This document shows, piece by piece, positions 3,161-53,455 of a stretch of 64,000 bases of DNA. The notes beneath the pieces are model-generated. The model had not been told where the DNA came from. It searched no databases and saw nothing but the letters and a program-made list of their open reading frames with translations. The translations under genes and the position numbers were made by a program. Position 1 is the first letter of the stretch; each line of letters starts with the position of its first letter. The stretch is taken from contig NZ_CP035490.1 of NCBI RefSeq assembly GCF_004135205.1, positions 6,253,501 through 6,317,500 of the forward strand, given 5' to 3'. Source of the DNA: Hahella sp. KA22. Its GTDB lineage: Bacteria > Pseudomonadota > Gammaproteobacteria > Pseudomonadales > Oleiphilaceae.

Positions 3161-3226
3161 TGTATACGTGAAATAACCGGCATATCCGAATACGACCTTT
3201 CCTTCTCTCCCCAGTCTATCTCTACT

Positions 3227-3361
3227 CCGTTCGCCCTGAGCCTGTCGAAGGGCCTTCCAGAGAGCTAATCCATAGGCAATGATCTTTAATCAACATCAGG
3301 AAAGTGGACTATTTTTTCCTCGTCGCTCTGGGAAGCCCTTCGACAGGCTCAGGGCGAACGG
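3227..3361. repeat. Inverted repeat of the TTCGACAGGCTCAGGGCGAA type
   Basis: The left arm (3227-3262) begins CCGTTCGCCCTGAGCCTG; the right arm (3326-3361) is its reverse complement. The first 26 positions are identical and the last ten differ at two. A 63-base spacer lies between. The same core is a well-known dispersed palindromic element in many bacterial genomes. Folding would give a very long stem at the 3' junction of two convergent genes. There is no transposase and no clear target duplication. Confidence 0.8.
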
Positions 3362-3461: not shown

Positions 3462-4091
3462 CTAACAAAGCATCAGGCGGTCAAAGCCAATCGCGAAGCC
3501 AATTCCTTGCTTATAAGCGCCGCCTCCGACCACTTGCTTTTGTGCACCCAGCTTGGGTACTGAGATTTCGAAGCCATCCTCCATGTAGTAACTTAGCCCG
3601 CGCTTCACGGCGCTGAACACTTCGTACTCCCTGGTTTGCAAAGCCACCATGTTTTCCGCCAGGGCGATCAGTTCTTCCCGAACCTCAGCGGAGGTGGGAT
3701 TAATGACCTCAACCCCGAACTGAAAGAATTCCCGGTAGCGGCCTTCCTGAGGACGCTCATAGCGCCAGCAGCGTTCAAAATACCAAAGCCGCACGTTCTT
3801 TCTGCGCTTGAAGTGTTTGTCCGCCACCAGTTGCACCGTCGCTGTTCCTTCTGGACGCAGACACAAAGAGCGGCCTTTCTTATCCGGAAACACATACATC
3901 TGCCCAAGTATCTCTTCTCCCGCCTTGTCGATGTAGACCTGAGAAGGTTCAATGGAAGGCAGAATCATTTCTTCAAACCCACTGGCTTCCGCCAGCGCAA
4001 TCATCTGATTCAGCAACGCCCTGCGCTTCTTCGCCGTATCGCCACTGATAATTCTTACGCCTTTGGCCAGACCTTCAATTTTATATTCCAT
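3462..4091 (-). CDS. Miniature histidyl-tRNA synthetase-like protein (catalytic core only)
   Basis: Only 209 residues, against roughly 420 for normal HisRS. The order of class II motifs is kept. An LRPEGT segment lies at 78-83 and motif 2 (RYERPQEGRYREF) at 110-122. A HisRS-specific histidine-binding element reads RGLSYY at 164-169 (usually RGLDYY), then GGGAY at 189-193 (usually GGRYD) and motif 3 GFAIGFDRL at 198-206. About 90-100 residues that normally separate motif 2 from RGLDYY (the insertion domain) are missing, and the protein stops right after motif 3, so there is no anticodon-binding domain. It may activate or bind histidine without recognising tRNA-His by its anticodon. HisZ is less likely because HisZ is longer and lacks these motifs. 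A full-length hisS must exist elsewhere. An upstream His-codon leader and terminator suggest control by histidine supply. Confidence 0.75.
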   Translation of the reverse strand: MEYKIEGLAKGVRIISGDTAKKRRALLNQMIALAEASGFEEMILPSIEPSQVYIDKAGEEILGQMYVFPDKKGRSLCLRPEGTATVQLVADKHFKRRKNVRLWYFERCWRYERPQEGRYREFFQFGVEVINPTSAEVREELIALAENMVALQTREYEVFSAVKRGLSYYMEDGFEISVPKLGAQKQVVGGGAYKQGIGFAIGFDRLMLC

Positions 4092-4123
4092 AACAAATTC
4101 CCATTCACTGAATTAAAAACAAT

Positions 4124-4157
4124 AAAAAAGCCCTCGCAGCAACGCTGGGAGGGCTTT
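4124..4157 (-). terminator. Attenuator-type intrinsic terminator before the HisRS-like gene
   Basis: On the minus strand AAAGCCCTC-C-CAGC, loop GTT, GCTG-C-GAGGGCTTT followed by a T run: nine pairs, one mismatch, four pairs, then six T. It ends about 30 bases before the HisRS-like ATG and after the leader frame, so transcripts from the 4264-4291 promoter must pass it to reach the gene. Its 5' arm (4144-4155) can pair instead with 4192-4203 (11 of 12 bases), giving an antiterminator. Confidence 0.8.
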
Positions 4158-4178
4158 CTCAGTGAACGGGCTTAACTT

Positions 4179-4256
4179 TCAACCAAGCAATAGCTCTCCC
4201 AGCCGACGATGCGACAGTGGATGCAGATGCTTTGGATGGATGTTGAAAGTAATCAT
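4179..4256 (-). CDS. Putative histidine leader peptide (25 codons, four His)
   Basis: An ATG at 4256 opens a 25-codon frame ending in TGA. Codons 7, 10, 12 and 16 are CAT; the central stretch reads I-H-P-K-H-L-H-P-L-S-H-R-R. The ATG lies seven bases beyond the -10 box at 4264-4269, so the message would be leaderless or nearly so, and no Shine-Dalgarno site is possible. Codons 18-22 are the segment (4203-4192) that can pair with the terminator's 5' arm. Codons 3-5 (ACTTTCAAC) are perfectly complementary to GTTGAAAGT over the stop codon. This is the layout of amino-acid biosynthetic leader peptides. Translation is inferred, not shown. Confidence 0.6.
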   Translation of the reverse strand: MITFNIHPKHLHPLSHRRLGELLLG

Positions 4257-4263
4257 GCCGGAC

Positions 4264-4291
4264 ATTATGCGTCCGAACAAAAGGATGTCAA
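4264..4291 (-). promoter_or_regulatory. Sigma70-type promoter of the leader/HisRS-like transcript
   Basis: TTGACA (4291-4286), a 16-base spacer, then CATAAT (4269-4264): a perfect -35 and five of six at -10. The expected start falls at about 4256-4258, on or next to the leader ATG. Confidence 0.7.
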
Positions 4292-4404: not shown

Positions 4405-5139
4405 TTATTCAACGCGTTGAGCCGCCACAATAAAGAACATCGGGCGTTCCAGCTCGACTTTCAGTTCTGGACATGCCTCGATTTGCTCTGCGCTGGGTCG
4501 CCACTCCTCCAGATGCTTCAGGGTGAAGCCCGTATTAATCAGCATCGTCAGATAGGTTCCCAGAGTACGGTGTTGTTTAACCACGCCATCCGCTAACCAG
4601 TCAGTGGTTCTTGGCCCTTCCACCAGATACTGGTTGATAGGCCAAAGCGTGTTTTTGCGCTGGTCTTCCGCCCAGCCAGGATTCCTGGGCGCCGTATAGA
4701 TCGGATGCTCCGCAGAGAAGATCAGCCAGCCGCCGGGTTTCAGACTGTTATACGCCTGTTCAAACAAGCCTTGCAGATTGGCGATGTAATGCAGCGTCAG
4801 CGAACTGTATACCAGGTCGTAACTGTTCACCGGCAGGGTCAGCGTCTCCAGATCCTCACGCGCATACTGGATGTGGGCGTCCGACGTCATTTCCTCTGCT
4901 TTGCTCAGCATATTCTGGGAAACGTCGACGCCCAGCACGTTGGCGGCGGACTGCTCACGCGCCCAGCGGCAGAACCAACCAAATCCGCAGCCCAGGTCTG
5001 CAACATTCGCGTTCGCCAGCGGGGGCATCAATGCCTTAATCGAAGCCCACTCCGGCGCTCCGTCCAGCCCATTCAGGGAACGTGGCAACTGGCTGTAGCC
5101 TTCGAAGAAAGAATCGGTGTCGTAAATATTTTGTGTCAT
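4405..5139 (-). CDS. Class I SAM-dependent methyltransferase
   Basis: About 244 residues. The Rossmann SAM-binding motif VADLGCGFGWF lies at residues ~47-57, followed by an acidic strand end VLGVDVSQNML, then DLVYSSLTLHYI and LKPGGWLIFSAEHP, which is the Methyltransf_11/25 pattern. The start at MTQNIYD is preferred over one 34 codons upstream because GGAG stands nine bases before that ATG and the upstream extension has no family-like character. The substrate is unknown; the neighbours (argS and the HisRS-like gene) give no clear hint, and each seems separately transcribed. Confidence 0.8.
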   Translation of the reverse strand: MTQNIYDTDSFFEGYSQLPRSLNGLDGAPEWASIKALMPPLANANVADLGCGFGWFCRWAREQSAANVLGVDVSQNMLSKAEEMTSDAHIQYAREDLETLTLPVNSYDLVYSSLTLHYIANLQGLFEQAYNSLKPGGWLIFSAEHPIYTAPRNPGWAEDQRKNTLWPINQYLVEGPRTTDWLADGVVKQHRTLGTYLTMLINTGFTLKHLEEWRPSAEQIEACPELKVELERPMFFIVAAQRVE

Positions 5140-53270: not shown

Positions 53271-53455
53271 AAGCTCCCTGAACTGCTCGCCAGTCAGATA
53301 CGTCCTCGAGCCGATGAATTTTATTATTGGTTACCTCCTGCGAGTGATGTGTGCAAGTCCCTCTTGAAGGGAAAGCCTAATTCATTCCAGCGGTTACCTC
53401 CTTGAACCAAAGGGTTCAAGGGCCACGTCAGACAGCGGCTGTCTCGGGGAGTTTA
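53271..53455 (+). ncRNA. ssrS: 6S RNA
   Basis: Between zapA and ygfA, the normal place. The conserved 3' stem-loop CTTGAACCAAAGGGTTCAAG (53401-53420) is nearly the E. coli sequence, and CTCCCTGA at the 5' end pairs with TCGGGGAG at the 3' end to close the rod. A TATAAT box at 53258-53263 sets the start at about 53270. It binds sigma70-RNA polymerase and represses it in stationary phase. The ends are estimates from pairing and -10 placement. Confidence 0.93.

Follow-up and report, generated by a model that had tools for sequence, protein, structure and literature searches.

A probable histidine-codon attenuator in front of a minimal histidyl-tRNA synthetase gene in Hahella sp. KA22, with candidate alternative switches among its relatives

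We analyzed a 64,000-nucleotide stretch of Hahella sp. KA22 (contig NZ_CP035490.1, positions 6,253,501 to 6,317,500 of the forward strand; hereafter the window), in which a short leader region containing a histidine-codon reading frame precedes, on the minus strand, a gene for a 209-residue protein resembling histidyl-tRNA synthetase (HisRS), which we call mini-HisRS. A first-pass annotation of this DNA, made from the sequence alone, had proposed that the leader acts as an amino-acid attenuator. The features of the locus are as follows, in window coordinates.

4264 to 4291, minus strand: sigma-70-like promoter, TTGACA (4291-4286), 16-nucleotide (nt) spacer, CATAAT (4269-4264), 11/12 matches to consensus
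4179 to 4256, minus strand: leader peptide MITFNIHPKHLHPLSHRRLGELLLG, ATG at 4256, 25 codons plus TGA (stop 4181-4179)
4199 to 4220, minus strand: candidate 1:2 hairpin (anti-antiterminator) whose loop holds the invariant His codon 16; weak in the window
4192 to 4203, minus strand: region 2, the 5' arm of the antiterminator
4159 to 4170, minus strand: 5' arm (CCCGTTCACTGA) of an additional 12-base-pair (bp) helix, -21.3 kcal/mol
4144 to 4155, minus strand: region 3, the 3' arm of the antiterminator and also the 5' arm of the terminator
4124 to 4160, minus strand: intrinsic terminator with six T, -23.5 kcal/mol
4100 to 4111, minus strand: 3' arm (TCAGTGAATGGG) of the additional helix, in the Shine-Dalgarno region directly upstream of the gene's ATG
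3462 to 4091, minus strand: mini-HisRS gene, ATG at 4091, 209 amino acids

The anatomy described in the first-pass annotation is borne out in full. The TTGACA-16-CATAAT promoter is present and is followed after 7 nt by the leader ATG, and the 25-codon frame carries His at codons 7, 10, 12 and 16. Region 2 pairs with region 3 (4203-4192 with 4155-4144) at 11 of 12 positions, giving a duplex of -21.9 kcal/mol, and the proposed terminator is indeed a strong stem. An equally good fold of the whole 138-nt leader was obtained in 1 of 200 shuffles (z = -3.69). A 9-base pairing between 4250-4242 and 4183-4175 is perfect in the window, as annotated, but is kept only in four close Hahella sequences, and we rejected it as a general element. 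Searches against Rfam returned no convincing family for the leader on the transcribed strand, either at gathering score or up to an E-value of 1: the best match on that strand was Leu_leader (17.7 bits against a gathering score of 50), and RF00514 His_leader reached 21.6 bits, below its gathering score of 49 and on the opposite strand, which places the leader outside that family.

To follow the locus beyond the window, we sought the gene in 97 related genomes and in genome contigs, viral contigs, plasmids and phages, with further searches of 58 genomes around G105, 40 around G113 and 17 genomes of one Massilia genus (G and L numbers denote our genomes and loci). The gene was found in 4 of the 17 Massilia-genus genomes, and its distribution within Hahella is patchy, two genomes (G003, G006) being without it. 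Of the 20 distinct loci that the window's clade has in bacteria, 17, spanning seven genera of gamma- and betaproteobacteria, keep the leader with its ATG, its His codons and both stems (window, L003-L007, L032, L036-L039, L041-L044, L049, L167; L035, L040 and L169 were left out as copies of L006, L004 and L038), which is the retention that the first-pass annotation had named as a check on its proposal. The loci without the leader are L131 (= L033), L132 and L034; upstream of L034 lie a palindrome and a short open reading frame (ORF) with one His, which we did not count as a His leader. Across 16 aligned leaders from the seven genera, the invariant positions comprise TTGA of the -35 element, CATGA, the last His codon, GGCTGGG.G.GC and GCCCTC...GAGGGCTTTTT, together with most of the GGCTGGGAGAGCTATTGCT block and the outer stem of the terminator. 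His is the commonest residue in the variable part of 15 leader peptides (L005 and L167 excluded), at 55 of 244 positions.

The distance from promoter to leader start is likewise conserved, with the ATG lying 6-8 nt past the best -10 element in 15 leaders and 9 nt past it in L007 (in L042 and L044 the spacing was read by eye, with a -10 of TATGAT 6 nt before the ATG), in agreement with the earlier placement of the ATG at or beside the expected transcript start. Because the ATG follows the -10 element by only 6-9 nt, the transcript should start at or next to it and no Shine-Dalgarno sequence fits before it, so the leader mRNA is probably leaderless. It is the conservation of the leader as a whole that lifts it above chance; the promoter match by itself does not.

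We made several further observations on the leaders and their surroundings. The GGCTGGGAGAGCTATTGCT block (4204-4186), and hence the peptide LGELLL, is conserved across classes beyond the needs of base pairing, and a second role of this RNA or of the LGELLL peptide is possible. Allowing up to 3 mismatches, the block occurs once in its own genome, exactly, at this leader, while a reversed control pattern gave 3 occurrences, and we therefore rejected it as a general operator of this genome; the exact block was absent from the viral contigs searched. In Undibacterium umbellatum (L044, about 4505-4770), the mini-HisRS gene is split by an insert of about 260 bp with long terminal inverted repeats, resembling a miniature inverted-repeat transposable element. 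In Paraburkholderia caribensis (L052, 5905-6540), a His leader is retained, the terminator and the N-terminal part of the gene are missing, and the leader is almost fused to the remainder.

The two alternative stems are mutually exclusive, share a common arm and are conserved in relatives with little covariation. Across the 16 sequences, 98.9% of 176 antiterminator cells are paired, compared with 41-59% when the arms are slid against each other, and the six outer pairs of the terminator are invariant, with one inner pair (191-203 of the alignment) being UA in 3 sequences, CG in 2 and unpaired in 11. A third stem, the 1:2 hairpin around the last His codon (4217-4212 with 4205-4200), has 83.3% of its cells paired compared with 24-70% when slid, has a base pair at its foot that is GC in ten sequences and AU in three, and is a perfect 6-bp stem in 6 of 16 leaders (L006, L041-L044, L049), with L036 using another register. 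This hairpin is a more widespread competitor than the 9-base pairing, yet is weak in the window.

Taken together, these features suggest how the leader would work. Transcription would start at the leader ATG or next to it, and translation of the peptide would proceed without a Shine-Dalgarno sequence. When His-tRNA is ample, the ribosome would reach the stop codon and cover region 2, allowing the terminator to form; when His-tRNA is scarce, it would stall at His codons 7-12 and leave region 2 free to pair with region 3 before region 4 is made, so that transcription would enter the gene. In the ribosome's absence, the 1:2 hairpin could plausibly occupy region 2 in relatives, and would do so weakly in the window. 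We infer the transcript start, the stalling and the induction from these elements, and folding predictions are consistent with them: as long as the 3' arm of the terminator is still unmade, the RNA left free by a ribosome at codon 7, 10 or 12 is predicted to form the antiterminator, and with a ribosome at the stop codon the predicted fold contains no antiterminator. Once the leader is complete, the predicted end state is the terminator wherever the ribosome stalls, which means that the switch must be kinetic; kinetic switching is also how classical attenuators operate.

That end state is one of several observations that weigh against the proposed switch. A ribosome at codon 16 yields only a shortened antiterminator (-12.7 kcal/mol), and just two His codons are present in the leaders of L007 and L036. 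The promoters at L041 and L049 are poor, with only 3/6 matches in the -10 element. The first-pass annotation had suggested looking in relatives for both His-codon retention and compensatory changes; the His codons are kept, but the antiterminator contains no two-sided change, and the covariation score of the terminator was matched by 227 of 500 shuffles. Covariation is thin because the GGCTGGGAGAGCTATTGCT block is almost invariant, to a degree that itself exceeds pairing needs. As for the 1:2 stem, it has 5 of 6 pairs and -1.1 kcal/mol in the window, where the best local fold reaches -5.0 kcal/mol; 10 of the 16 sequences have a mismatch at one particular pair of it, and sliding the arms by -3 as a control gives a higher covariation score with a larger number of two-sided changes. 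Weighing these points against the conservation of the leader, we hold with good though not full confidence that this is a conserved ribosome-mediated His attenuator controlling the gene for a minimal histidyl-tRNA synthetase.

The leader of Hahella may contain one more device. The 12-bp helix joining 4170-4159 to 4111-4100, which was not part of the first-pass annotation, would hide the Shine-Dalgarno sequence of the mini-HisRS gene. We rejected such sequestration as a general feature, as foreign partners pair equally well in 10 of 16 leaders; in the other 6 (four Hahella, L006 and L007), whose sequences differ, the leader's own partner is better than all foreign ones (0/12 or 0/15). We read the helix as a lineage-limited device that would conceal the start site upon terminator bypass without antitermination and would thereby, in a weaker step of the scheme, mute leaky read-through in Hahella.

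The gene product matches Pfam domain PF13393. Its best NCBIfam model is hisS, at 160.5 bits, below the TIGR00442 cut-off of 286.75 and thus outside the canonical HisRS family, and the hisZ model scores lower still (87 bits against a cut-off of 271.65), placing the protein outside HisZ as well. Alignments of 23 and 20 relatives show little or no variation in LRPEGTA, RYERPQEGRYREF (motif-2 loop), RGLxYY, GGG and motif 3, except that motif 2 varies in two mega-phage rows (L050, L051). The predicted model (mean predicted local distance difference test score, pLDDT, 90.2) finds its best structural match in HisRS 1adj with bound histidine (Z 25.0, 205 of 209 residues, root-mean-square deviation 2.0), whose sequence is that of the Thermus thermophilus entry 1h4v, and the top Foldseek match is likewise a HisRS (1kmn); HisZ 5m8h is also close in fold (Z 23.2). 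By fold and motifs, the protein thus belongs with class II HisRS cores and, on the predicted model, amounts to a HisRS catalytic core whose chain stops after motif 3, lacking the insertion and anticodon-binding domains; we infer that it is catalytically active.

A second property of the protein concerns its composition. Mini-HisRS of the window contains one His residue, and the C-terminal parts of 52 mini-HisRS proteins contain 20 His in 9,269 residues, with 0-1 per protein in 50 of the 52, compared with 2.02% His and at least 5 per protein in canonical HisRS (41 ORFs out of 45 loci). A protein with almost no His can be made during His-tRNA shortage, and this low content fits a protein that would be needed while His-tRNA is scarce.

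We also compared the distribution of the leader with that of canonical hisS in 16 carriers of the mini-gene (the genomes of L038, L044, L049 and L167 fell outside this check). All 13 leader-bearing genomes (six in the first genome set and seven later) also have a canonical HisRS, and the three leaderless carriers (G104, G105, G113) are the three in which none was found. The hisS model exceeded its cut-off in 3 of 5 genomes searched with it, and in neither G104 nor G105; PF13393 matches comprised HisZ and the mini-gene only in G113 and G105, and the mini-gene only in G104. The absence of a His switch just where the mini-gene would be the sole synthetase is what would be predicted if mini-HisRS elsewhere serves as a back-up. 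Two of the three carriers, G105 and G113, are related and so not independent, and among the 58 genomes around G105 the mini-gene occurs only in these two. Absence of hisS alone is weak evidence, since 5 of 56 mini-gene-free relatives of G105 (G109, G114, G126, G153, G157) also have no HisRS-length match, making assembly incompleteness a real background. The contigs of G104 end too soon to show a deletion, and we rejected the ispG neighbourhood as proof of hisS loss there, because hisS of Pleionea (G103) likewise lies away from ispG.

Gene order is more informative in the other two genomes. The Hahella order is rlmN-pilF-rodZ-ispG-hisS-yfgM-bamB-der, with gene names that we read from the proteins, without a family search. 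Inside a 457-kb contig of G113 the order is rlmN-pilF-yfgM-bamB-der; rodZ and ispG are gone as well, so that a segment was lost. In G105 the order is rlmN-pilF-rodZ-[hisS relic]-yfgM-bamB-der, where the relic comprises 29 codons matching HisS residues 26-54 at 55% identity (E 1e-5; L165 6119-6033). A deletion within contigs and a relic differ from assembly gaps. Hahella, G105 and G113 each encode a separate HisZ of 392-407 amino acids, and those of G105 and G113 align with the Hahella HisZ and lack the HisRS motif-2 sequence. The mini-enzyme therefore seems, from gene content and order, to have replaced hisS in some bacteria. The coincidence of leaderless carriers with those without hisS, and the loss of hisS from its operon in two of them, argue that the mini-enzyme very probably charges tRNA-His. 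It would probably recognize the G-1:C73 end, leave the anticodon unread and serve hisS as a back-up in emergencies.

Relatives on phages and plasmids carry what appears to be a different switch. Among 39 distinct phage or viral loci (repeated contigs among L053-L126 having been grouped), 20 have a gene that is broken with a +1 continuation, 18 are unbroken and one is broken otherwise. Together with two Paraburkholderia plasmids, this gives 22 shift loci, some of them near-copies (such as L067 and L095); L077/L126, with the other kind of break, and the truncated L052 lie outside this count.

L046, 5904-5996: +1 shift locus
L048, 5904-5996: +1 shift locus
L047, 3913-4005: +1 shift locus
L053, L055-L063, L066, L067, L069, L081, L091, L092, L095, L098, L101, around the match start: +1 shift loci

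The annotated records of L046, L047 and L048 place the gene start in the downstream frame. In 22/22 loci the overlap of the two frames contains (C/G)TT-CA(T/C), with CTT in 14 and GTT in 8, followed by CAT in 17 and CAC in 5; in L057 the overlap has room for only two codons, GTT CAC. The next codon is a stop in 15/22 and a sense codon in 7/22, so that the slow codon must be the His codon rather than a stop, and in this the sites depart from the RF2 type. In other respects they follow it: an internal Shine-Dalgarno-like motif lies about 3 nt before the slippery codon and the frame continues in +1, with an anti-Shine-Dalgarno binding minimum 2-3 nt before the slip codon that averages -6.78 kcal/mol, compared with -0.13 (sd 1.79) over the profile. 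This energy is at or below -5.7 kcal/mol in 18/22 loci, weak in L067 and L092, and no such motif is present in L066 and L098. The site of L061, for instance, reads AGG GGG TCT CTT CAT TGA, and that of RF2 (prfB) reads AGGGGG UAU CUU UGA C.

Sites of this kind lie elsewhere in the gene in L069 and L101. In our tree, L069 falls among the attenuator clade, and the starred branches require the shift label to have changed three times or more; the placement of long branches (L101, L072 and two Paraburkholderia rows) is unsure, and the tree covers the family minus L073, L104, L108 and L113, which the extraction pattern missed, and L004, L044, L075 and L076. When His-tRNA is short, the CAY codon would stand empty and the P-site tRNA would slip to UUC, yielding full mini-HisRS; when it is plentiful, His would be inserted and a short peptide would end. 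The arrangement thus predicts that the full-length protein is made only while the His codon is "hungry". A weak point is that a slip from GUU costs a first-position mismatch. The Paraburkholderia plasmids, whose homologues are distant, combine the shift with a His leader unrelated to that of the window (L046: MELRNVPSKAHHHHGRYPLRRGPLRP), whose antiterminator (-19.5 and -19.8 kcal/mol) is predicted to be stronger than its terminator (-13.5 kcal/mol). On hungry-codon frameshifting for starvation-specific proteins, a passage of a 2016 recoding review states that "no examples are known" (Atkins and others, PMC5009743), and our open-literature searches on HisRS paralogues, phages and hungry codons, which left subscription papers mostly outside, found no paper on a 209-residue HisRS or on a His-codon frameshift.

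Phage and viral copies of the gene also tend to lie near tRNA genes. Of 25 such loci (scanned as sets of 4 and 21, with L079 onward outside the scan), 20 carry one or more tRNA genes in the flank that was fetched, often in a long array, and 15 carry a tRNA-His(GTG) there. At least one tRNA-His with G-1 and C73 occurs in 15/15 of these loci (16 of 20 genes). In Sinorhizobium phage Phosso, for instance, tRNA-His lies 220-280 bp upstream of the mini-HisRS copy, depending on the start taken. Second GTG tRNA genes without C73, each beside a G-1/C73 tRNA-His, occur in L053 (2291-2366), L056 (2012-2087), L061 (3707-3779) and L051 (1265-1338); G-1 is also missing from those of L053, L056 and L061. Such paired GTG tRNAs possibly serve one the host enzyme and the other the phage enzyme. 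According to a section of PMC9976931, HisRS charges minihelices and microhelices through G-1:C73, with the anticodon mattering too in vivo in E. coli. Passages in PMC9976931 and PMC3875453 further describe alphaproteobacterial groups whose tRNA-His has neither G-1 nor C73, and an E. coli HisRS/tRNA-His pair that is orthogonal in Caulobacter. A phage pair of the Phosso type may thus be self-contained and orthogonal in alphaproteobacterial groups without G-1/C73.

Considering all of these relatives, we find it likely, if somewhat less firmly than the attenuator of the window, that mini-HisRS represents a nearly His-free family of minimal synthetases on chromosomes, plasmids and huge phages, in which gating by His-tRNA shortage has been built in at least three ways (two unrelated attenuators and a +1 shift at a hungry His codon, the latter at three gene positions), and which replaces hisS in some bacteria, where it is then switch-free. 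The alternative that survives best accepts the attenuator and supposes that mini-HisRS activates histidine for a target other than tRNA, such as a protein, a carrier, a tRNA modification or a natural product. GluQ-RS, EpmA and the amino-acid:carrier-protein ligases are examples of such other roles, the anticodon domain is gone here, and the window offers no evident partner (a methyltransferase gene lies upstream and an OmpA-type gene is convergent); part of PMC9437257 describes such roles for several shortened synthetase paralogues. We nevertheless regard it as unlikely, given that G104, G105 and G113 yielded no HisRS candidate other than mini-HisRS, that tRNA genes, and tRNA-His in particular, flank so many of the phage loci, and that the motif-2 loop is kept in the window's clade.

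Less probable still is that the split frames of phage and Paraburkholderia relatives reflect sequencing errors or gene decay. Metagenomic contigs make up 19/22 of the shift loci, some relatives are broken differently (L077/L126) or truncated (L052), and 18 of the 39 phage loci are unbroken, which speaks for this reading, but the +1 sense, the site and, mostly, the Shine-Dalgarno-like motif are common to 22 loci including two RefSeq plasmids and an isolated phage, the downstream parts are open and conserved, and in L069 and L101 the sites recur elsewhere in the gene. It is very improbable that mini-HisRS is a HisZ-like regulator of histidine biosynthesis: PLSDB annotates the Paraburkholderia copies (L046, L048) in this way, and HisZ is a HisRS paralogue without anticodon domain and with a closely matching fold, but we rejected this function on the model scores, in which hisS exceeds hisZ, and on the separate HisZ proteins, with the kept catalytic motifs also standing against it. 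Equally improbable is a 5' region of the usual kind in which a His-rich ORF arose by chance, with regulation via the terminator alone or via a protein. Promoter-like matches do occur at chance level (2 found against 1.9 expected in the scanned stretch) and the RNA block is conserved to excess, but gamma- and betaproteobacteria alike retain the reading frame, its His codons, the spacing of the start and the two stems, and Paraburkholderia again has a His leader, of unrelated sequence.

Elsewhere in the window, we noted by eye two inverted copies of a CCCTTCGACAGGCTCAGGGCGAACGG-type repeat at 3220-3350, downstream of the mini-HisRS gene, and a 6S RNA gene at 53272-53454 on the plus strand (RF00013, 107 bits).

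In the window, a His attenuator would thus sit, unexpectedly, before the gene for a minimal synthetase that may not need to read the anticodon to charge tRNA-His. Its relatives would be candidates for natural genes in which a hungry sense codon selects the reading frame, and both bear on the minimal size of a working synthetase and on how phages secure tRNA charging. Among known systems, the attenuator resembles hisL (RF00514 His_leader) in its His-codon leader peptide, alternative stems and intrinsic terminator. The hisL leader has a run of seven His codons, whereas the leaders described here have 2-5 mostly scattered His codons, are probably leaderless and, in the window, precede a mini-HisRS gene outside a his operon. 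Vecchione and Sello reportedly described in 2010 the attenuation of an auxiliary tryptophanyl-tRNA synthetase gene, S. coelicolor trpRS1, which encodes an antibiotic-resistant TrpRS; that system shares with ours the ribosome-mediated attenuation of a second synthetase gene, while ours concerns a minimal His catalytic core, spread over seven genera and plasmids, with phages among the relatives. According to part of PMC7298713, the trpL attenuator RNA of Sinorhizobium meliloti begins at the leader-peptide ATG and may act as a leaderless mRNA, an ATG-initial arrangement like that proposed here, although trpL has Trp codons and serves a biosynthesis operon. The phage and Paraburkholderia relatives alone resemble RF2 (prfB), in their internal Shine-Dalgarno-like motif at similar spacing, +1 slip and autoregulatory logic, and differ from it in having a His sense codon, and not a stop, as the slow codon in the A site. 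The protein itself shares the class II core fold with canonical HisRS and HisZ, but has only 209 residues, has no insertion or anticodon domains, is nearly His-free and, unlike HisZ, keeps the catalytic motifs. An attenuator on an auxiliary synthetase, as in the window, therefore has a Trp precedent, and the mini-HisRS family as a whole goes further.

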